This document shows positions 237 to 23,959 of a DNA stretch of 50,995 bases, piece after piece. Under the pieces are notes generated by a model. It was not told the DNA's origin and did no database searches. It was given only the letters and a program-made list of their open reading frames with translations. Source of the stretch: a virus; IMG/VR virus record IMGVR_UViG_3300010885_010496, positions 1 through 50,995 of that record. One strand, 5' to 3'. Both the position numbers and the translations under genes were made by a program. The number at the start of each line of letters is the position of its first letter. Position 1 is the first letter of the stretch.

Positions 237-1164
237 GACCGTAATCCTTCAAATACTGAGCAACGTATTGCTCGGGAGTTAAGCCGAAGCGGCGCGCCAG
301 GGTAACCTGGGATGGGGTTAGCTGCACTTTGCGGGTGTTCTGTGCCGTCCGCGTGACGGGGGCAACCACCGTAGAAGGCTGACGCCGGGGCGCAGCCTCC
401 ATTGTCCGACCGGTCGCAACTGGTTCCGGGTCAGATGGAGTAAAGTATTCCGAGAACCGGCGCTGAACGCGCTTGTTCAGCTCATCGAAATACTTGTCTG
501 TTGTCGGGTCAATCTTATTGTCGCGGATCAGCACGTCGCTAACCGCATAAGCGTAACCCGTCATTTCTTTCTCAAGCTCTGAGCCGCCCTCGAACCATGG
601 GTTCTTGTTTGCCCAGTCAACAACCTTTGCGTCAGGCTGTGGTTTCGGTTGAGGAATGTTATACTCAGGCTCAGGCGCAGAGAACGGCTGATAGTTAGCA
701 TACCGATCATGCTCATTGACAAGGCGCTGAAGGCGCTCCTGATCTTCAATGAACTTTTCAGTTTCGCCCGCTTCCCAGGCTTCTTTCATTGACCGCTTGG
801 TTGCGGTGATGTCAGTCTCTGCCCGGTTCTTCGCTTGGTTGACAGCGAACTGCTCATTGCTGCCAGCAAGCTGCCGGTACTTCTTATTCTCATCTGCTAG
901 CATGTTGGCAAGACGAAGAGCTTCGTCCCGTTCCTTGGCCGCAGCTTCCTTAGCGCGGCGTTCAGAATGCGTCTTAAAGGATAGTTCCTTAATCCGCTTC
1001 TTTACGTCATCGCTATAGCGAGAAATCTCTGAATCGGCGACATTGATGTCGTCGTCGTTGGCTGTGAACTCGGGGGCAAGCGGCCTGCCGCGATCAGCCT
1101 CTGGAGTGTCATCGACAATCTCGATTTCAAAATCGATATCATCATCTTTCTCTTTGTCGGTCAT
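229..1164 (-). CDS. scaffold-like / capsid assembly protein
   Basis: This is a 311-residue, highly charged protein with an acidic N-terminus (MTDKEKDDDIDFEIEIVDD) and a predicted coiled coil at about residues 50-150 rich in Lys, Glu, Arg and Ala. A proline-rich linker follows at about 160-180, and the tail is basic (residues 250-311). That composition, and its place two genes after the portal and before the expected capsid gene, are typical of podovirus scaffolding proteins, which fill the procapsid and leave before DNA packaging. The start ATG overlaps the stop of the GroES-like gene by four bases (ATGA), which suggests translational coupling. No enzymatic motif is visible. The scaffold call rests on composition and gene order, not on a recognised domain. 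Confidence 0.6.
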   Translation of the reverse strand: MTDKEKDDDIDFEIEIVDDTPEADRGRPLAPEFTANDDDINVADSEISRYSDDVKKRIKELSFKTHSERRAKEAAAKERDEALRLANMLADENKKYRQLAGSNEQFAVNQAKNRAETDITATKRSMKEAWEAGETEKFIEDQERLQRLVNEHDRYANYQPFSAPEPEYNIPQPKPQPDAKVVDWANKNPWFEGGSELEKEMTGYAYAVSDVLIRDNKIDPTTDKYFDELNKRVQRRFSEYFTPSDPEPVATGRTMEAAPRRQPSTVVAPVTRTAQNTRKVQLTPSQVTLARRFGLTPEQYVAQYLKDYGHG

Positions 1165-1538
1165 GCGCGCGCAACTCCACGAGGATCGTCAACCACAGCT
1201 TCAACCGTGTCGTCATTGATCAACCGGAACTCCCGGCCATGAATCTTGACGCGAGTGCCGCTGTAAGCGCGAAACACAACCCAATCTCCAACCTTACACC
1301 AAGGGCCTGTCGGAAACTTCTTCTCGTCCCCGTAAGCCATAGGTCCGGCCTTTAGAACAAAACCCACAACGGTTGCAAGGGTTTCGTTATTACGAACTTG
1401 TTCCGGCAGATAAACGCCGCCGTCTGTTTTCTCTTCAAGCTCGGGAAGGGCAATCAACAACTTGAAGCCAGAAGGATCAGGAAGCTGCGTTGCTCCCGTC
1501 ACTTCTCCATCCGGCATTTTGATATCTACGTTTAGCAT
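1161..1538 (-). CDS. GroES-like co-chaperonin (Cpn10 fold)
   Basis: The product is 125 residues from the ATG at 1538, which has AAGGA seven bases upstream; the longer frame to 1586 has no ribosome site. The body matches the Cpn10 pattern: an N-terminal strand GFKLLIALPELEEKTDGGVYLP, then a mobile-loop-like region (EQVRNNETLATVVGFVLKAGP), then GDWVVFRAYSGTRVKIHGREFRLINDDTVEAVV, which is like the barrel closing strands of GroES. It is slightly longer than host GroES (about 97 residues). Phage T4 gp31 is the precedent: it replaces GroES so that GroEL can fold the large capsid protein. Its place between portal and scaffold genes fits a role in capsid folding. The fold assignment is confident; the capsid role is inference. 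Confidence 0.75.
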   Translation of the reverse strand: MLNVDIKMPDGEVTGATQLPDPSGFKLLIALPELEEKTDGGVYLPEQVRNNETLATVVGFVLKAGPMAYGDEKKFPTGPWCKVGDWVVFRAYSGTRVKIHGREFRLINDDTVEAVVDDPRGVARA

Positions 1539-1595
1539 CTTAGTCCTTTGGCACACTGTTTGGGTCGTGTGATACCCGGCACCCACTATGGGCGA

Positions 1596-6546: not shown

Positions 6547-6786
6547 TATGGTACCCGGGTGGGGTAAATGGTACCTAAGTTTTGATAGGGGGTGGGTTTG
6601 CTATGGAAGATTGTGCGGGAGTTGTGGGGAAATTGATATGGGGGTGGGTATTGATTTATTTTGGGATCGTTTGAGTGGAATAGTATGTAGGGGTCGCGGG
6701 GGATCCATTCGCTGGATCGGGGTGCCCGCCCTGGGTGGGGTCACACGGGAGCCATTCCCTTGACGCCCACCCTCATCCATTACGCT
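6547..6786. other. G-rich intergenic control region with paired GGTACC sites
   Basis: No credible gene is seen between the start of the 136-residue gene and the repeats at the end of terS. The octamer ATGGTACC occurs at 6548-6555 and 6568-6575, 20 bases apart (two helical turns), directly upstream of the minus -35 box; each contains the palindrome GGTACC. The plus strand has many G runs (GGGGG, GGGTGGG) over 6560-6720. This may hold regulator sites and perhaps part of a packaging start site near terS. Confidence 0.45.
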
Positions 6787-6841
6787 CAAGTATTAATCAA
6801 GTATCATCCAAGTATTGCTCAAGTATTGCTGCAGTATTTAC
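6787..6841. repeat. five 11-base tandem repeats at the 3' end of terS
   Basis: The units CAAGTATTAAT, CAAGTATCATC, CAAGTATTGCT and CAAGTATTGCT follow one another without gaps from 6787 to 6830. A degenerate fifth copy GCAGTATTTAC overlaps the terS stop codon. The 11-base period is about one helical turn, so all copies face the same side of the DNA. Repeats like this commonly bind a protein multimer; small terminases bind repeated sites near their own gene in several phages. Confidence 0.75.
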
Positions 6842-7580: not shown

Positions 7581-7609
7581 TTGACATCGCTTTCTGACTG
7601 TGGTCATAT
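7581..7609 (+). promoter_or_regulatory. sigma70-type promoter, plus strand early block
   Basis: TTGACA at 7581-7586 is followed 17 bases later by TCATAT (7604-7609). The -35 is perfect and the -10 is weak, which is compatible with activation or repression. It is the only promoter-like sequence before the early gene block that starts at 7759. Confidence 0.5.
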
Positions 7610-7666
7610 GATCTCACCAAAGCGGCAAGGGCTGCTCTGGTTGTTGTTTCAAAACTAAATCCGAAA

Positions 7667-7719
7667 CGGTGGGGAGTAGCGCCCCCACCGCATAATCCGC
7701 CGGACCATGGCGGATTGTG
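7667..7719 (+). promoter_or_regulatory. tandem hairpin leader of the gp88-like gene
   Basis: Hairpin one is CGGTGGGG (7667-7674) with CCCCACCG (7683-7690), 8 bp. Hairpin two pairs 7691-7701 with 7709-7719, 11 bp including one G-U, 7-base loop. They are adjacent with no gap and precede GGAGG and the ATG at 7759. The layout resembles the leaders at 8555-8616 and 8940-8995. Confidence 0.55.
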
Positions 7720-7758
7720 TGGTGCGGCAATTATGCCGGCCAATTGGAGGCTAAAATC

Positions 7759-8547
7759 ATGGCTATCATTTACAATCTAGCCAAGCTTGACGCGGAAACT
7801 CGAAGCGAGATTGAGAATTCCCCGAAATGGCGCAAACTATTCTCGGCCAAGCCTAAGAAATTGCTGGGCATTGGAACCGATGCAAAGACTATCAAGGGTG
7901 AAAAGGTAGGTGTCATGACAGGCATCTTGTACCTATCCCCAGCTGATAAAAGCGGCGTTAATCTTTGCCCATTGGCAATGCTGGCAAAATGCAAGGAAGC
8001 ATGCCTGGACACCGCTGGGCGCGGTGCAATGGATTGCGTATCCATGGCGCGACTACGCAAAACGCTATTCTTCCTTCAATTTCAGGGAGAATTCCTCGCA
8101 ATGCTACATGCCGAGATTGACGCGGCAAAGCGAAAGGCCGCGAAGCGCGGGCTTGTGTTGCGTATCCGATTGAATGGCACGAGCGACATTCGATGGGAAT
8201 TGCATGGGGTGGTGCAAGCCCATCCAGACGTGCAATTCTATGACTATACAAAGATTGCAAACCGCGCGGTTCTGTCAAACTATGACTTGACCTTTTCTTA
8301 TTCGGGCATTGCTGCCTACCAGCCCCAGGTCATGCGCGCCATCAAGGCAGGCATGCGCATTGCCGTGGTGTTCCGTACCCGCGCCATGGTCGAGGCTATG
8401 CTCGCCAATGGCGAGCGCTTCCTTAATCTCGAACTAGTCGACGGCGATGACAGTGATAACCGGCCAGACGACGCCCATGGCGTGGTGGTTGCGCTCTATG
8501 CCAAAGGCAAGGCCAAGCATGACAACACGGGCTTTGTTGTGGGGTGA
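7759..8547 (+). CDS. gp88-family phage protein
   Basis: The product is 262 residues from the ATG at 7759 (GGAGG eight bases upstream). It resembles the phage 'gene product 88' family (GP88), known from mycobacteriophages and common in environmental phages; its biochemical role is not established. Visible family features are a Cys cluster C70-x7-C78-x3-C82 in NLCPLAMLAKCKEACLDTAGRGA, a basic helix MARLRKTLFF, and the strands LRIRLNGTSDIRWE and QFYDYTKIANR followed by YDLTFSYSG. The Cys spacing suggests metal or Fe-S binding. It is the first gene of the early block behind a strong -35 promoter, so it should be among the first proteins made. Family membership is confident, function unknown. Confidence 0.8.
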   Translation: MAIIYNLAKLDAETRSEIENSPKWRKLFSAKPKKLLGIGTDAKTIKGEKVGVMTGILYLSPADKSGVNLCPLAMLAKCKEACLDTAGRGAMDCVSMARLRKTLFFLQFQGEFLAMLHAEIDAAKRKAAKRGLVLRIRLNGTSDIRWELHGVVQAHPDVQFYDYTKIANRAVLSNYDLTFSYSGIAAYQPQVMRAIKAGMRIAVVFRTRAMVEAMLANGERFLNLELVDGDDSDNRPDDAHGVVVALYAKGKAKHDNTGFVVG

Positions 8548-8554
8548 CAAGGCA

Positions 8555-8616
8555 GGGGGGGGTCTACCCCCCCCTATCCTCTACTGGCGAACACATGCAA
8601 TCCCGCGTGTGCTCGC
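8555..8616 (+). promoter_or_regulatory. tandem hairpin leader, copy 1
   Basis: Hairpin one is eight Gs (8555-8562), loop TCTA, eight Cs (8567-8574). Then the shared octamer TCTACTGG (8580-8587) leads into hairpin two: 8587-8598 pairs with 8605-8616 (12 positions, one A/C mismatch, loop AATCCC). CTTGTG follows, then the start at 8634. No T run follows either stem, so a terminator is unlikely. Compare 8940-8995. Confidence 0.7.
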
Positions 8617-8633
8617 TTGTGCAGGGTAAAACT

Positions 8634-8930
8634 ATGACCAATGTCAAAACAAAAGATGTCAAATCGGCCGATGCGCGAAAAAAGCCCCACATCGTTGCCC
8701 CCGTACGAATGGGTTTTGTTGACGCAATGAATGGCAAACCATACTCGCCAGAGTATGAGACTGCCAAGCAATGGTGGCAACAGAACTACAATCAAGGCAG
8801 GCTTATTGCAGCAGAATGCAAGGCCAGCAATATCAAGGCGAAATGGCCCGCCAATATTATCTTGCCCAAACTGATACAGGAAATCTCGCATTATGTCGCG
8901 CGAGACATGCGGCAAATGCCAGCACAATAA
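8634..8930 (+). CDS. small basic phage protein of unknown function
   Basis: This is a 98-residue protein starting at the ATG after the hairpin leader; the frame upstream (from 8544) runs through the hairpins and is not used. The N-terminus is Lys-rich (MTNVKTKDVKSADARKKPHI), followed by VRMGFVDAMNGKPYSPEYETAKQWWQQNYNQGRLIAAE and a helical C-terminus. The 'G..DA..GKPY...Y....Q..Y..GR..A' layout resembles small phage proteins that start with a compact helical domain, but I cannot name a family. It is probably co-transcribed with gp88 and the following genes. Confidence 0.7.
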   Translation: MTNVKTKDVKSADARKKPHIVAPVRMGFVDAMNGKPYSPEYETAKQWWQQNYNQGRLIAAECKASNIKAKWPANIILPKLIQEISHYVARDMRQMPAQ

Positions 8931-8939
8931 CCAAAAGAT

Positions 8940-8995
8940 GGGAGGGTCTATCCCTCCCTCTACTGGAAAGCACATGCAATGGTGCGTGTGCTTTC
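8940..8995 (+). promoter_or_regulatory. tandem hairpin leader, copy 2
   Basis: Hairpin one is GGGAGGG (8940-8946), loop TCTAT, CCCTCCC (8952-8958). The shared TCTACTGG (8959-8966) leads into hairpin two, where 8966-8978 pairs with 8983-8995 over 13 bp with loop ATGG. CTTGTG, GGAGAG and the ATG at 9012 follow. Compared with copy 1 the stem bases differ on both sides in a complementary way, which supports conserved RNA structure. Confidence 0.75.
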
Positions 8996-9011
8996 TTGTG
9001 GAGAGAATAAC

Positions 9012-9284
9012 ATGGACAACATTAAAACGCTGGCCAGCATCAAGCGAGCATTGCGCGAGGTATATGCATGGCCGGGTGGATACCCGCTTTACATTGTGAT
9101 GGCGGACGGGGAGGCTCTTTCCATCGCCGCCGCGCGGGCTGAATGGCGCAACATCTGCTATGCCACGCTGCATGGGCATCGCGATGGCTGGCAGGCCGCT
9201 GGCGTAGACATCAATTGGGAGGATACGTCCCTTTACTGCGCCCACACTGGCGACCTCATCGAATACGCATACGGGGAGGGCTGA
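9012..9284 (+). CDS. small phage protein (WPGGYPL family-like)
   Basis: This is a 90-residue protein; the ATG at 9012 has GGAGAG six bases upstream. The motif VYAWPGGYPLYIVMADGEAL near residues 15-35 and the ending DGWQAAGVDINWEDTSLYCAHTGDLIEYAYGE resemble a small phage and plasmid protein family that usually carries zinc-binding Cys pairs. Here the first pair is replaced (EALSIAAARAEW) and only one Cys remains in the second region (LYCAHTG), so metal binding may be lost. Function unknown. The next gene starts three bases after its stop. Confidence 0.75.
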   Translation: MDNIKTLASIKRALREVYAWPGGYPLYIVMADGEALSIAAARAEWRNICYATLHGHRDGWQAAGVDINWEDTSLYCAHTGDLIEYAYGEG

Positions 9285-9287
9285 GGT

Positions 9288-9884
9288 ATGGACATCCAGG
9301 CACTGAAGGATTGCTTGCCCAAACTGTCAGGCAAGGATTTCGAATTCGCTTCCAGCCTTATCAGCGCGCATGCTCGATGGGGTGGGCTGACACCCAAACA
9401 AGCCCCATGGGTGGGCAAACTCATTGCCCGCGCCAATGGGGAGGATAAGCCCCAGGCCGTGCGAGTGGGTGATCTCGCTCCCATCCTGGCCCTATTCAGC
9501 AAGGCGACCAAGCGCCTGAAGCGCCCTGCTATTGTGCTGTCTACGCCAGAGACAGGCACCCTCCGGGTGAGCATCGCGGGCGAAAGGTCTAAATTCCCAG
9601 GCAGTCTATCGGTGACAGGCCCTGGCACATTCGATGACCGCGCGTGGTTTGGCCGCGTGGCAATTGACGGGACATTCATTCCTGGCCGCGATGCAGCAGG
9701 CAAAGAAAGCGCCCTGGCGGGTGTGCTGTCTCGCTTCGCAGCGGAGCCAGCGCAGGTTGCAGCGGAGCATGGCCGCCTGCATGGCGCGTGCTGCTTTTGC
9801 AACCTGCCGCTGAAGGATGCCCGGTCCACTGCGGTGGGGTATGGCCCGACATGCGCGGATAACTACGGCATGCCTTGGAATTGA
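9288..9884 (+). CDS. zinc-ribbon protein with DUF6011-like C-terminus
   Basis: This is a 198-residue protein. The C-terminal part CCFCNLPLKDARSTAVGYGPTCADNYGMPW is a treble-clef or zinc-ribbon-like element of the DUF6011 type (Cys-x2-Cys, then S-x2-GYGP-x-C). The N-terminal half (LTPKQAPWVGKLIARANG) looks like the helical region often found before this domain in phage proteins. A central beta-rich part (residues 80-140) carries GTLRVSIAGERSKFPGSLSVTG. It is likely a nucleic-acid-interacting early protein. The domain call is reasonable; the function is not known. Confidence 0.75.
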   Translation: MDIQALKDCLPKLSGKDFEFASSLISAHARWGGLTPKQAPWVGKLIARANGEDKPQAVRVGDLAPILALFSKATKRLKRPAIVLSTPETGTLRVSIAGERSKFPGSLSVTGPGTFDDRAWFGRVAIDGTFIPGRDAAGKESALAGVLSRFAAEPAQVAAEHGRLHGACCFCNLPLKDARSTAVGYGPTCADNYGMPWN

Positions 9885-9890
9885 CACTCC

Positions 9891-9926
9891 GATAAGGCGG
9901 CGCGGCCTAGCCGCGTGCGCTTTATC
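9891..9926 (+). promoter_or_regulatory. long intergenic hairpin
   Basis: GATAAGGCGGCGCGGC pairs with GCCGCGTGCGCTTTATC over about 16 bp with one bulged G and a CTA loop. A weak second hairpin follows at 9927-9949. There is no T run. It lies between the gene ending at 9884 and the ATG at 9965, and could be an RNase III processing site or an mRNA stabiliser. Confidence 0.6.
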
Positions 9927-9964
9927 CGATTGCCAATCATGGATAATCGAACGAGGAAAAGAAC

Positions 9965-10387
9965 ATGCGAAAGAACGATCACGGTGTGAGGCTCCCCAAT
10001 AATTGGAAGCTTGAGGGCTGGCATGGATTGCTCCGCATCGAAAGCCAGATGCGCGACTATGGCGACTGGCAAGTATTGGTTGCGGAGGATGCCTGCAAAC
10101 ACAGGAAAACCATCCCGCTACAGGCCCAGAGATATGACGAAATGATGCATCGCGCATCCCGTTACTTCGCCAAGGCTGAACGGGTGGCCGAGTATCGCAA
10201 TACTGCCTACCCAAATGGCGCACCCGCGCCGGTCGAGGATGCGCCGCACGTCAACCCGCCATTGCGCGGCGATGAGGCGGCCATCCTGCGCCAAGCCTCA
10301 GCCATCATGGCTGAGCGCGGCATCCACGTCACCGCGCGCAAGCTGATCGACATGGCCCACGATATCGAGGCGGAGCTAGGGTTGTGA
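9965..10387 (+). CDS. unknown early phage protein
   Basis: This is a 140-residue protein starting at the ATG after GAGGAAAAGAAC. The N-terminal half is rich in aromatic and charged residues (NNWKLEGWHGLLRIESQMRDYGDWQVLVAE). The C-terminal third EAAILRQASAIMAERGIHVTARKLIDMAHDIEAELGL is helical and looks like a small helix-turn-helix or helical bundle. It overlaps the next gene by four bases (GTGA). I do not recognise the family. Confidence 0.75.
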   Translation: MRKNDHGVRLPNNWKLEGWHGLLRIESQMRDYGDWQVLVAEDACKHRKTIPLQAQRYDEMMHRASRYFAKAERVAEYRNTAYPNGAPAPVEDAPHVNPPLRGDEAAILRQASAIMAERGIHVTARKLIDMAHDIEAELGL

Positions 10388-12279: not shown

Positions 12280-12608
12280 GGCAACGCAGGCGTGGGTTGG
12301 CTAGGCGTGGCGCGGTGGGGCGCGGCAAGGACTGGTAACGCAGGCAAGGCAGGCGGGGCATGGACTGGTATGGCCAGGAGCGGCGAGGCGAGGACTGGCG
12401 CGGCAGGCATGGATCGGACGGGCGCGGCGAGGTTTGGTTCGGCTCGGCGAGGCAGGCTCGGACTGGAGAGGACGGGCGCGGCGTGGCCAGGAACGGCGGG
12501 GCAAGGCAACGCAGGCAAGGCAAGGATCGGCGCGGCCTGGATTGGCAAGGCACGGCAGGCGCGGCTAGGCACGGCGGGGCGCGGCACGGCATGGCGGGGC
12601 AACGCAGG
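12280..12608 (+). repeat. GG-phased degenerate pentamer array A
   Basis: About 330 bases of the plus strand read as units NNNGG (CAAGG, CGCGG, CACGG, ACTGG, CGAGG, CGGGG) with occasional 4-base CAGG units, so that GG recurs every five bases. The decamer GCAACGCAGG and near variants recur at both ends and inside. Open frames exist on both strands (12276-12602 minus, 12292-12636 plus), but this follows from the period-5 pattern and lack of T; none has a ribosome site. The remaining bases to 12687 hold two hairpins and the ribosome site of the next gene. Confidence 0.85.
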
Positions 12609-12613
12609 AATAA

Positions 12614-12666
12614 CAACTGAAGGAATGGTCCTTTAGTTGACTACCCCACATCGATAACGGTGTGGG
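12614..12666 (+). promoter_or_regulatory. tandem hairpin leader before the 12688 gene
   Basis: 12614-12624 pairs with 12629-12639 over 11 bp with loop ATGG, the same loop and closing A-U pair as the hairpin at 8966-8995. A second hairpin pairs CCCACATC (12645-12652) with GGTGTGGG (12659-12666), with loop GATAAC. AAGGAGAG and the ATG at 12688 follow. Confidence 0.65.
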
Positions 12667-12687: not shown

Positions 12688-13335
12688 ATGACTGAAGTTT
12701 CAAAGATTCCGACGACCAGCATTAACATCAAGCCGCCCGCGATGCAGCGGATGGTGTTGCGTATCGTTGGCACCGCACCGCTGGTGATCAATCGCTTTCC
12801 TGCCAAGGCGCAGCAGGCGATGATGGAAAAGATGGCGGCTGGTTCGACCGCCAAGAAGGGCGCGAAGCGTGACCCGAAGGACTTCGATGAAGTCTTCCAA
12901 GGCGCACGTCACCTGTCCTCTGAGGGATGGGATGGCATCCACGCTGGTGCATTCCGCAACGGTCTGATCTCGGCATGTCGGTTGGTTGGGTTCAAGATGA
13001 CCCTGGCTAAGCTCTCCCTCTTTGTGGAAGCTGATGGTCTGGATGTTATCGATGGCACCCCGCTGGTGCGGATCATTGCCGGCGAGCCAGAGCGCACAGA
13101 CATGCACGTCCGTAACGCTACCGGCGTGATCGATATCCGTACCCGTCCGATGTGGCGTGACTGGGCTGCCGATCTGCGTATCCGGTTCGACAGTGAGCAG
13201 TTCACACAGGGCGATGTTGCCGCTCTTGTTGCCCGTGTGGGTGCCCAGGTTGGCATCGGCGAGGGCCGTGCTGATTCGAAGGCCAGCACCGGCATGGGCT
13301 GGGGTCACTTCGAAATCGACAACAGCCAGCAGTAA
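12688..13335 (+). CDS. conserved phage protein of unknown function flanked by GG arrays
   Basis: This is a 215-residue protein. It begins MTEVSKIPTTSINIKPPAMQR, then MVLRIVGTAPLVINRFPAKA, a helical Lys-rich segment (AKKGAKRDPKDFDEVFQ), HAGAFRNGLISACRLVGFKMTLAK, and a C-terminus with VGIGEGRADSKASTGMGWGHFEI. The G-T-A-P-L-V start and glycine-rich end are typical of a widespread phage family of unknown role. The strand pattern and G-rich loop recall RAMP/Cas7-like folds, but I treat that as speculation. It is the only gene lying between the two GG-phased arrays and has its own hairpin leader and a UUCG-capped hairpin after its stop, so it looks like a discrete cassette. Confidence 0.75.
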   Translation: MTEVSKIPTTSINIKPPAMQRMVLRIVGTAPLVINRFPAKAQQAMMEKMAAGSTAKKGAKRDPKDFDEVFQGARHLSSEGWDGIHAGAFRNGLISACRLVGFKMTLAKLSLFVEADGLDVIDGTPLVRIIAGEPERTDMHVRNATGVIDIRTRPMWRDWAADLRIRFDSEQFTQGDVAALVARVGAQVGIGEGRADSKASTGMGWGHFEIDNSQQ

Positions 13336-13342
13336 TAACATG

Positions 13343-13370
13343 CTGCGCCCTGCCTTCGGGTGGGGCGCAG
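13343..13370 (+). terminator. UUCG-capped hairpin after the 12688 gene
   Basis: CTGCGCCCTGCC pairs with GGTGGGGCGCAG around a TTCG tetraloop: 12 bp including two G-U pairs. It starts eight bases after the stop codon at 13335. Only TT follows, so it is not a clear intrinsic terminator; a 3' stabilising hairpin or weak terminator is more likely. Confidence 0.55.
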
Positions 13371-13646
13371 TTGGCATGGCAGGCGCGGATAGGCGGGGAC
13401 TGGTGCGGCTGGGCGGGGCTTGATTAAGGCAAGGCAGGCATGGCACGGACTGGCGTGACAGGGTGAGGACAGGCACGGCAGGCATGGATCGGCGCGGCAC
13501 GGCTCGGCGAGGTGGGGTTCGGCACGGCAGGCAAGGCTAGGAGTGGGCTGGTAGGGCACGGCTGGGACTGGCACGGCAGGCAAGGCAAGGAAAGGCCGGG
13601 CACGGCTGGGCGCGGACTGGCGAGGCAGGGCGCGGCAGGCACGGCT
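13371..13646 (+). repeat. GG-phased degenerate pentamer array B
   Basis: This is the second array with the same grammar as 12280-12608 and the same orientation (G-rich plus strand): NNNGG units with interspersed CAGG. It is not a simple copy, because unit order differs. A short hairpin (ATCCAC/GTGGAT, 13655-13678) and AAGGAGAG lead into the next gene at 13696. Confidence 0.85.
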
Positions 13647-13695
13647 ACCCAAACATCCACAGCAATCATGCGGTGGATAATTAAGGAGAGAACTA

Positions 13696-16282: not shown

Positions 16283-16888
16283 TTACTCCATGCCGTCTCT
16301 ATAAATTCTCGGACGCCTAAGATTTTCCACCGCAGGAATTGCCCTCAGATTCCAAGGAACATGAAGTCCACACACGACCCTTCCATTCAACGGTACGATA
16401 TGATCAACGTGATAGGTTACACCAGTCTCAATCGAAAGGCGTTGCGCTTCAGCATACACTGCGTTGATCTGGGAAATATGATCTGGCGTTAGCCATAGTG
16501 GCATGGCTTGCTTTTTTCTTGCGCGACGATTTGCTTTGTGACTGCGAACGAGATCTCGATTGGCGGCGCACCACAGGCTGTTAAATTCTGGATTACTAGC
16601 GTTCCATTTAGCCTTGTATTGCAGGACGCGCTCTCGATTAGCGGTGCCCCACTCTTTAACTTTCTTTTTTCTGACGTTTGAATTTTGAATATAACGAACG
16701 TGATTTTTTAGAATCACTGCTGCCGGGCAATCTTCTTTTTGACAATGGTTAGGTCCATACCGCTCTCGGTTTTTTATAATAAGCGGATCACCATACTTAA
16801 GAAACTTTTTGTAATGGGCGAGGCATAACCCGCGCGTCCTGACGGTCTTGCCGCACCCGGCAACCGAGCATATAAGAGAATCAGCCAT
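16283..16888 (-). CDS. HNH homing endonuclease, copy 1
   Basis: This is a 201-residue protein. The N-terminus has a small zinc motif (CSVAGCGKTVRTRGLCLAHY), the middle is basic, and the end has the HNH core: YHVDHIVPLNGRVVCGLHVPWNLRAIPAVENLRR (D-H, then N and H-like residues). It is closely related in length and sequence to the copy at 20387-20992. Free-standing HNH enzymes of this kind spread by cutting genomes lacking them. It lies upstream of the primase-helicase on the same strand. A hairpin related to that before copy 2 lies upstream of it. Confidence 0.9.
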   Translation of the reverse strand: MADSLICSVAGCGKTVRTRGLCLAHYKKFLKYGDPLIIKNRERYGPNHCQKEDCPAAVILKNHVRYIQNSNVRKKKVKEWGTANRERVLQYKAKWNASNPEFNSLWCAANRDLVRSHKANRRARKKQAMPLWLTPDHISQINAVYAEAQRLSIETGVTYHVDHIVPLNGRVVCGLHVPWNLRAIPAVENLRRPRIYRDGME

Positions 16889-16916
16889 TTAACTTTCTTA
16901 AGAAGTTGCTGGTCAG

Positions 16917-16959
16917 AAACCCAGGCATCGTTGGTCGCGGTGCTTGGGTTTTGTTTTTT
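16917..16959 (+). terminator. hairpin upstream of HNH copy 1; plus-strand terminator-like
   Basis: AAACCCA (16917-16923) pairs with TGGGTTT (16945-16951), with an inner GCA/TGC pair. On the plus strand it is followed by a T-rich tail ending in six Ts. A related structure precedes HNH copy 2 at 21022-21064. It may end plus-strand read-through, and on the minus strand it forms a leader hairpin for the HNH gene. Confidence 0.5.
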
Positions 16960-20386: not shown

Positions 20387-20992
20387 TTAATCCATATCCA
20401 TGCTGTAGATTCTTGGACGCCTAAGATTTTTATCTCCTGGGATGGCGCGTAGATTCCAGGGAACATGAAGGCCACACACGATCTTCCCGGCTAGCGGAAC
20501 AATATGATCGACGTGATGGGCAATGCCAGTCTCAACTGAAAGGCGTCTTGCCTCAGTATAGACTGCGTTGATCTGGGAGATGTGGTCTGGAGTTAGCCAT
20601 GATGGCATGGCTTTCTTTTTTCTTGCGCGGCGATTGGCATAATAACTGTTGAGTAGGTTTGGATTAGCATCGTTCCATTGGCGATTTCTGGCGCGGATTC
20701 TAGCCTTCACATCATCTCGCGCGCAGTACGCTTCTCTAGTTTGCTTGTAGACTTCTGGGTTATTTGAGCGCCAATTTTTGTACGAGTCTAAATTTTTAAC
20801 GTAATGAATACGAGCAAGTATTTTCTTTGCTGCTGGGCAGTTTGTTTTGCCGCAGTGGTTATTACCGTCCCGGTATTTTGTTTTAAGTGGATCGCCGTTT
20901 CTGCGGAGTTTACTATAATGAGCATGGCAATAGCCACGGGCTATGATGGGCTTGCCACACCCTTCGATTGAGCATACTTTGAGGTTAGCCAT
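20387..20992 (-). CDS. HNH homing endonuclease, copy 2
   Basis: This is a 201-residue protein and a clear paralogue of the copy at 16283-16888. It shares the N-terminal CSIEGCGKPIIARGYCHAHY motif, ARRKKAMPSWLTPDHISQINAVY and the HNH core HHVDHIVPLAGKIVCGLHVPWNLRAIPGDKNLRRPRIY. The N-terminal and middle parts differ much more than the C-terminal 75 residues. It is inserted on the minus strand between the RlpA-like gene and rusA. Confidence 0.9.
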   Translation of the reverse strand: MANLKVCSIEGCGKPIIARGYCHAHYSKLRRNGDPLKTKYRDGNNHCGKTNCPAAKKILARIHYVKNLDSYKNWRSNNPEVYKQTREAYCARDDVKARIRARNRQWNDANPNLLNSYYANRRARKKKAMPSWLTPDHISQINAVYTEARRLSVETGIAHHVDHIVPLAGKIVCGLHVPWNLRAIPGDKNLRRPRIYSMDMD

Positions 20993-21021: not shown

Positions 21022-21064
21022 GAAACCCAAGCGGCGTTGACGCGCTGTTTGGGTTTCGTCTTTT
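21022..21064 (+). terminator. hairpin upstream of HNH copy 2; plus-strand terminator
   Basis: GAAACCCAA (21022-21030) pairs with TTGGGTTTC (21049-21057), 9 bp, followed on the plus strand by GTCTTTT. It can stop transcription leaving the RlpA-like gene. It is related in sequence and position to the structure at 16917-16959. Confidence 0.6.
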
Positions 21065-23446: not shown

Positions 23447-23491
23447 GGCTGGCCTATGATAGCCTTCCCTTCTATCGCAAGGAGGTAAGGC

Positions 23492-23959
23492 GTGGTCAGT
23501 CATAAAGTTTGTTACGCATGCAAAGCGACTCTGCCGATGAAGGATTTTTATAAACATCCCAAATCGGCAGACGGCTATTTAAATAAATGCCAGTCATGTT
23601 GCCGCGCTCACGCGACGGCAAATAGGTGGAAAAATATAGAAAGGATAAGGCAGTATGATTCTCAAAGAAGCAAGAACCCAGATCGGGTGGCTGAAACCGT
23701 TCGGAGAACTAAGAAGAAACGGCAATCCGACCCACGTTATACGCGCTGTCATAACGCAGTCGCTCGTGCCTTGAAGAGTGGCGCTTTAAAACGCTCCAAC
23801 TGTGAGCGCTGTGGGCATGAAAAATCCATGGCCCATCACGATAGCTATGACCATCCCCTGCAAGTGATGTGGCTATGCCAGCCCTGCCACAAGCAACGGC
23901 ACAAAGAGATTGATGCCATCGCGGAGACTTCTGATGAAAAAGGTTGTCCTCTCTCCTAA
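23492..23959 (+). CDS. HNH-type nuclease
   Basis: This is a 155-residue basic protein; GTG start at 23492 with AAGGAGGT upstream. A first Cys4 element lies in KVCYACKATLPMKDFYKHPKSADGYLNKCQSCCRAH. The second, RSNCERCGHEKSMAHHDSYDHPLQVMWLCQPCHKQRH, is an HNH/treble-clef core (Cys pairs, HH, PLxVxWLCxxCH). Free-standing phage HNH proteins of this type can be homing enzymes or packaging helpers. It overlaps the next gene by 26 bases. Confidence 0.85.
   Translation: MVSHKVCYACKATLPMKDFYKHPKSADGYLNKCQSCCRAHATANRWKNIERIRQYDSQRSKNPDRVAETVRRTKKKRQSDPRYTRCHNAVARALKSGALKRSNCERCGHEKSMAHHDSYDHPLQVMWLCQPCHKQRHKEIDAIAETSDEKGCPLS

Follow-up and report, generated by a model that had tools for sequence, protein, structure and literature searches.

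Comparison of related viral contigs shows that the early, non-structural operon of this phage carries selected, structured RNA elements that lie between a stop codon and the next ribosome site, are exchangeable between genes and are not terminators. We assign a probability of about 0.5 to the reading that they are generic intercistronic mRNA elements, i.e., putative sites of RNase III-type processing and stabilisation that would separate one gene from the next. The window, i.e., the whole stretch of DNA analyzed, comprises 50,995 nt and corresponds to positions 1-50,995 of the virus contig IMGVR_UViG_3300010885_010496. PHROGs and Pfam provide names for terminase, portal, primase/helicase, Erf-like annealing and gp88 genes. 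The nearest match for one structural protein is found in Roseobacter phages of the CRP group, and the phage group with the hairpin leaders is uncultured. The window has two close relatives (L159/L160/L194 and L162/L106).

Several further features were noted in the window. A gene for a GroES-like co-chaperonin (1161-1586, minus strand) adjoins the portal gene, and four tandem 11-nt repeats with CAAGTAT, iteron-like in appearance, adjoin the gene for the terminase small subunit (6784-6837). Two related HNH/endonuclease VII-like genes (16283-16888 and 20387-20992, minus strand) share 75% identity over 296 nt, and a similar GAAACCCA.../...TGGGTTT hairpin resides close to each of them (16916-16952 and 21022-21057). 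In a hairpin at 23462-23491 (plus strand, GCCTTCCCTTCT/AGGAGGTAAGGC), the AGGAGG ribosome site of a GTG-start gene at 23492 would be paired.

Layout of the leaders in the early region

In the early region, all gaps of about 80-86 nt between plus-strand genes hold an element, and gaps below 50 nt hold none; the 44-nt gap before 11702 folds with 0.0 kcal/mol. Wherever the upstream gene is readable, the element starts at most about 10 nt from its stop codon, and it ends with the next ribosome site. The first hairpin is G/C-rich where present. It is shortened in L184 and L163, and thus not always required. Folding of whole gaps yielded -47.7 kcal/mol (z -5.7) for 8548-8633, -43.1 kcal/mol (z -8.6) for 8931-9011 and -34.1 kcal/mol (z -4.9) for 9885-9964; z was -4.4 for the 90 nt 5' of 12688 and -4.1 for 7645-7762, which was folded separately. 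When the whole window was scanned for stems, nine scored at least 28, compared with 0-2 in block shuffles, and the top two were those at 7683-7727 and 8958-9003. Chance structure in G+C-rich sequence has nothing beyond the G+C content in its favor and is refuted by z values down to -8.6 together with the covariation and the homologues described below, so that we give it practically no credence. Intrinsic terminators were also rejected: No terminator-like site was found on the plus strand within the leaders and no U run follows the stems, in full agreement with the earlier note on this DNA.

The larger gaps before 12688 and 13696 contain hairpins, but are mostly made up of pentamer arrays. These two arrays of about 300 nt (12280-12610 and 13373-13650, plus strand) are built from degenerate pentamers in which GG recurs at 5-nt intervals (NNNGG), slip by one base approximately every 50 nt at GGCAGGC and flank the gene 12688-13335. 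The seven related viral records searched contained no run of eight such units. A strong hairpin (13342-13371, plus strand) is located 6 nt past the stop codon of 12688-13335, another one (about 13655-13678, plus strand) directly 5' of the ribosome site of 13696, and the second array sits between them as if inserted between hairpins 1 and 2.

Covarying leader families

Three models were built, R1 for class B, R2 for class A and R3 for class C/E, and covariation was tested for each family against 500 shuffles and slid controls. For all three families, the proportion of paired cells and the covariation score exceed every shuffle and every slid control. True copies score at least about 65 bits with R1 if complete, 86 bits with R2 and 50 bits with R3 (a further member that R3 detected on the contig of L180 reaches 49.9 bits), while the best scores among 60 unrelated control loci were 15.4 bits for R2 and 13.5 bits for R1. 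Note that the copies used for training match their models by construction and that independent support comes from new members and the clean controls. The earlier note had made its proposal dependent in part on homologous structures in related phages, and covarying homologues were indeed found.

The leaders at 8554-8624 and 8940-9003 represent a single structured element, class A, in two copies. The first feeds a gene for a 98-aa protein (8634-8930, plus strand), the second one for a 90-aa protein (phrog_18452, 9012-9284, plus strand). The two hairpins reported in the earlier note for the leaders 8555-8616 and 8940-8995 are both present. In leader 1, hairpin 1 (AGGGGGGGG TCTA CCCCCCCCT, 8554-8575, plus strand) begins 6 nt past the gp88 stop codon, and hairpin 2 (8579-8624, plus strand, 89.8 bits with R2, supported by pair counts) is composed of the outer helix CTCTAC/GTGCAG, a U-U mismatch and a 13-bp inner helix. 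Leader 2 folds into a hairpin 1 with the sequence GGGAGGG TCTAT CCCTCCC (8940-8958, plus strand) and a hairpin 2 with the outer helix CTCTAC/GTGGAG (8958-9003, plus strand, 94.1 bits with R2, likewise supported by pair counts). It had gone unnoticed that stem two runs on past the U/U mismatch into this outer helix (CTCTAC with GTGnAG), which holds the Shine-Dalgarno sequence: AGGG in leader 1 (8623-8626, plus strand, unpaired probability about 0-0.02) and GGAGAG in leader 2 (9000-9005, plus strand), the first bases of which are predicted to pair. Seven copies of class A occur in three related viral contigs, five of them outside the window (L159/L160/L194 and L162/L106). In their alignment, 95.5% of the cells are paired in a helix of 19 pairs plus the U-U mismatch, six pairs have changed on both sides, and the covariation score is 0.278 as compared with 0.085 for shuffled alignments and at most 0.11 for slid controls. 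Inner stems have been wholly replaced on both sides (CGAACG/CGCTCG, AAAGCA/TGCTTT, CAATGC/GCATTG). The compensatory stem changes claimed earlier therefore hold both within the window and across relatives. Mobile palindromes of the REP/RAYT type were considered and rejected, as the CTAC beside hairpin 1 varies (CTTTAC, TATAC) and changes at one column together with its pairing partner, which identifies CTAC as part of an RNA helix. Integron attC sites were rejected as well, since the conserved GTTRRRY/RYYYAAC core sites were not seen on inspection by eye.

The class B leader at 9882-9964 (plus strand, 74.7 bits with R1) had been overlooked in the earlier note. It comprises the stop codon TGA, a core hairpin (9891-9926), an alternative hairpin (9927-9949) and the ribosome site. 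Twelve related contigs contain class B, two of them with a second copy, giving 14 copies. Their helix has 21 pairs with a mismatch and a bulge; 98.4% of the alignment cells are paired, eight pairs have changed on both sides and none of the 500 shuffles equals the alignment in pairing or in covariation score. The bases at the stop codon (TGACAATC) are able to pair with GATTGCCA, thereby lengthening hairpin 1, while GATTGCC alternatively forms hairpin 2. Both of these mutually exclusive folds are possible in 14/14 copies and differ by about 0-5 kcal/mol. All three segments have changed jointly in L106, and L180 has a different upstream junction and keeps the pairing with other letters. Folding thus suggests that class B leaders may switch between two exclusive hairpins.

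The leader at 7667-7758 is of class C and belongs to a covarying family of its own, C/E. Its first hairpin (CGGTGGGG/CCCCACCG, 7667-7690, plus strand) was identified by folding and has a counterpart in the homologous leader L106 3532-3608. The core (7685-7758, plus strand, 65.4 bits with R3, covariation in alignment A4) consists of a long hairpin CGCATAATCCGCC/GGCGGATTGTGTGG and a small hairpin GGCAATTATGCC, and the ribosome site, which is predicted to be paired, follows before the gp88-family gene (Pfam GP88, 7759-8547, plus strand). The earlier note had seen at 7667-7719 the same plan as in the class A leaders; homology to leaders of relatives was found, but the family is a different one. 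In the class C/E alignment, 90.1% of the cells are paired with a covariation score of 0.310 versus 0.132, and the helix has 14-16 pairs. L181, which was outside the set used for model building, matched R3 with 61.4 bits. Distant gp88 relatives gave weak R3 matches of about 27 bits (L010, L011, L013); apart from these, the majority of distant gp88 relatives had leaders without a match in the set examined. An analogous long hairpin (GCGCCATATTAGCCGCGC.../...GCGCGGCGTTTATGGCGC) is located between genes and directly 5' of the ribosome site in L007, L009, L010, L011 and L013.

Class D, at 12614-12666, has two hairpins according to fold and stem scan, CAACTGAAGGA ATGG TCCTTTAGTTG (12614-12639, plus strand), for which no homologue was found, and CCCACATCG ATAA CGGTGTGGG (12645-12666, plus strand). 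Of the earlier description, the two hairpins and the ATGG loop stand, but neither R1, R2 nor R3 finds a match here. This leader is an analogue by plan, and homology to the other leaders has no support from the models.

The ratio of G-U to A-C cells on the coding strand is 22 to 4 for class A, 36 to 1 for class B and 29 to 17 for class C/E, counts that come from related copies and do not represent independent events. As departures from Watson-Crick pairing in classes A and B are mostly G-U and seldom A-C, the structures of classes A and B are probably formed by plus-strand mRNA and not by the other strand or a DNA cruciform. A first exact DNA pattern for class A had 77 viral matches, nearly all due to chance, and a stricter one returned real elements in already known contigs only. 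No matches to the class A or class B pattern were obtained in GTDB genomes. Blastn against isolate phages and plasmids gave no match for class A and marginal partial matches for class B (E 0.7-0.8). At the gathering threshold, Rfam detected nothing but tRNAs in the window and in six relatives, and there was no credible weak match at 7600-10000.

The diversity of the leaders bears on one proposal of the earlier note, namely that they could be bound by a phage RNA-binding protein. Such a protein might be an autogenous repressor or an antiterminator. Conserved letters near the mismatches (CTACTGG ... CTTGTG in class A, CCGGCAAGG ... CTTTGCCCG in class B) are possible protein contacts, although their conservation may reflect recent descent alone. 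At least four sequence-unrelated types occupy the same slot in several copies per genome without an obvious common motif, and no RNA-binding regulator was recognised among the proteins scanned, to which PHROG assigned families of packaging, structural, replication and recombination functions. The proposal has lost support, and we consider it very unlikely. In phage HK022, put RNA forms two adjacent stem-loops in a leader and acts on RNA polymerase once, at the start of the operon, whereas the leaders described here occur in several copies between genes and each finishes at a ribosome site.

Exchange of leaders between genes

In about a dozen related contigs, leaders of classes B and C/E stand before unrelated genes. 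Class B precedes at least nine gene families (90-aa, 305-aa, 79-, 72-, 71-, 70-, 140/80-aa and others) and class E at least six. Conversely, the same gene can have different leaders: gp88 is preceded by class C in the window and L106 and by class A in L159. For the 90-aa gene, the leader is of class A in the window and L162 and of class B in L161, L163 and L184; in L160, a 65-aa gene lies between the leader and the 90-aa gene, which itself has none. Leader class is thus not tied to gene identity. Next to the gp88 3' hairpin GGCAGGGGGGGG(G)TCTACCCCCCCC, the window has a second hairpin of class A and L106 one of class E. L106 carries an insertion at this point, a 53-aa gene with a class E second hairpin, which separates the gp88 3' hairpin from the second hairpin of class A. 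Judging by these few comparisons, a first hairpin tends to stay linked to the gene upstream of it, and a second hairpin to the one downstream. The early operon could accordingly be pictured as a series of exchangeable cassettes, each consisting of second hairpin, ribosome site, gene, stop codon and first hairpin, combined with class B switches that sense ribosomes in that the terminating ribosome picks the hairpin; we regard this picture as speculative and improbable as a whole.

In principle, the leaders could also be recombination joints, i.e., conserved boundaries for gene swaps, with hairpins that are incidental or maintained by template-switch repair of palindromes. Breakpoints do fall within leaders, as seen for the L106 insertion between hairpins 1 and 2, the shortened first hairpins of L184 and L163 and the swaps after class B. 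However, repair of palindromes would erase G-U pairs and mismatches, and several columns are G-U in nearly every copy. Compensatory changes, in turn, would be unneeded in pure linkers. This explanation is therefore unlikely.

Proposed function and known analogues

The generic character of the elements, which swap between unrelated genes and reside between stop codon and ribosome site, makes RNase III-type processing and stabilisation the best reading. The host RNase III or a similar enzyme would cut the long helix, which spans 16-21 bp and is imperfect, in most cases through 1x1 mismatches or a bulge. Where a G/C-rich first hairpin exists, it would then cap the upstream message at its 3' end, and the 5' end of the downstream one would be set by the cut or by the second hairpin. 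In class A, and by extension in class C, uncut RNA would have its ribosome site paired, and cutting, or melting by a ribosome arriving from upstream, would turn on translation of the gene that follows. One transcript would thereby be split into units with independent stability and translation. The helix of about 20 bp with mismatches expected of an RNase III site is found in classes A, B and C/E, and all leaders have the expected intergenic position before a ribosome site. Class D lacks such a helix, its hairpins of about 11 and 9 bp being short for RNase III.

Alternatively, the hairpins may exert translational control by hiding the ribosome site until upstream terminating ribosomes (coupling) or a regulatory protein open it, without any cutting. 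This possibility derives support from the Shine-Dalgarno sequence, the core of which is predicted to be paired in 7/7 class A leaders and in three class C leaders with an unpaired probability near 0, from leaders beginning at the stop codon, and from the stop-codon bases of class B, which compete for a segment that otherwise builds the second hairpin. However, the Shine-Dalgarno sequence is paired in all leaders of just two classes, A and C, and open in B, E and D. Its hiding is thus not the shared function, and no one translational mechanism accounts for every leader. The swaps between unrelated genes also speak against a gene-specific operator. We consider translational control as the general function possible but rather doubtful.

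Among well-studied systems, the RNase III sites of phage T7 are the nearest working analogue, though we do not claim membership. T7 R sites, of which the genome has several, are long imperfect hairpins located between early genes; they end just before a ribosome site and lack a U run. The leaders resemble them in all of these respects. They differ in that they start at the upstream stop codon, fall into at least four unrelated sequence families, often possess a separate G/C first hairpin and swap between unrelated genes. In bacterial operons of the puf type, intercistronic hairpins between stop and start set the stability of segments; these are not known to be repeated or exchanged between genes as the leaders are here. 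For T7, ten RNase III sites are described, six of them within intergenic regions that hold a promoter (PMC9135205).

The nearest published analogue found in the open-access literature is the ESAS/SAS system of cluster K mycobacteriophages, again without a claim of membership. ESAS, imperfect repeats of 17 bp located beside the 13-bp SAS, follow one consensus in each subcluster, and an ESAS before a gene family in one cluster K phage is usually present in others too (PMC3203893, PMC12699233). ESAS recur as inverted repeats just 5' of ribosome sites, before non-structural genes from different families (PMC3203893, PMC12699233); the leaders likewise stand just 5' of the starts of varied non-structural genes. 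In contrast to ESAS, they form several families with compensatory changes, often have an extra first hairpin, and leader class and gene are uncoupled. The SAS consensus GGGATAGGAGCCC beside the start codon is absent from the leaders as read.

The analysis adds several covarying families of phage leader RNA without a match in Rfam. These leaders also offer a directly testable example of expression parts whose movement is independent of the genes served. If the processing reading proves true, a T7-like strategy would operate in another phage group, and the leaders may provide compact insulators for synthetic operons.
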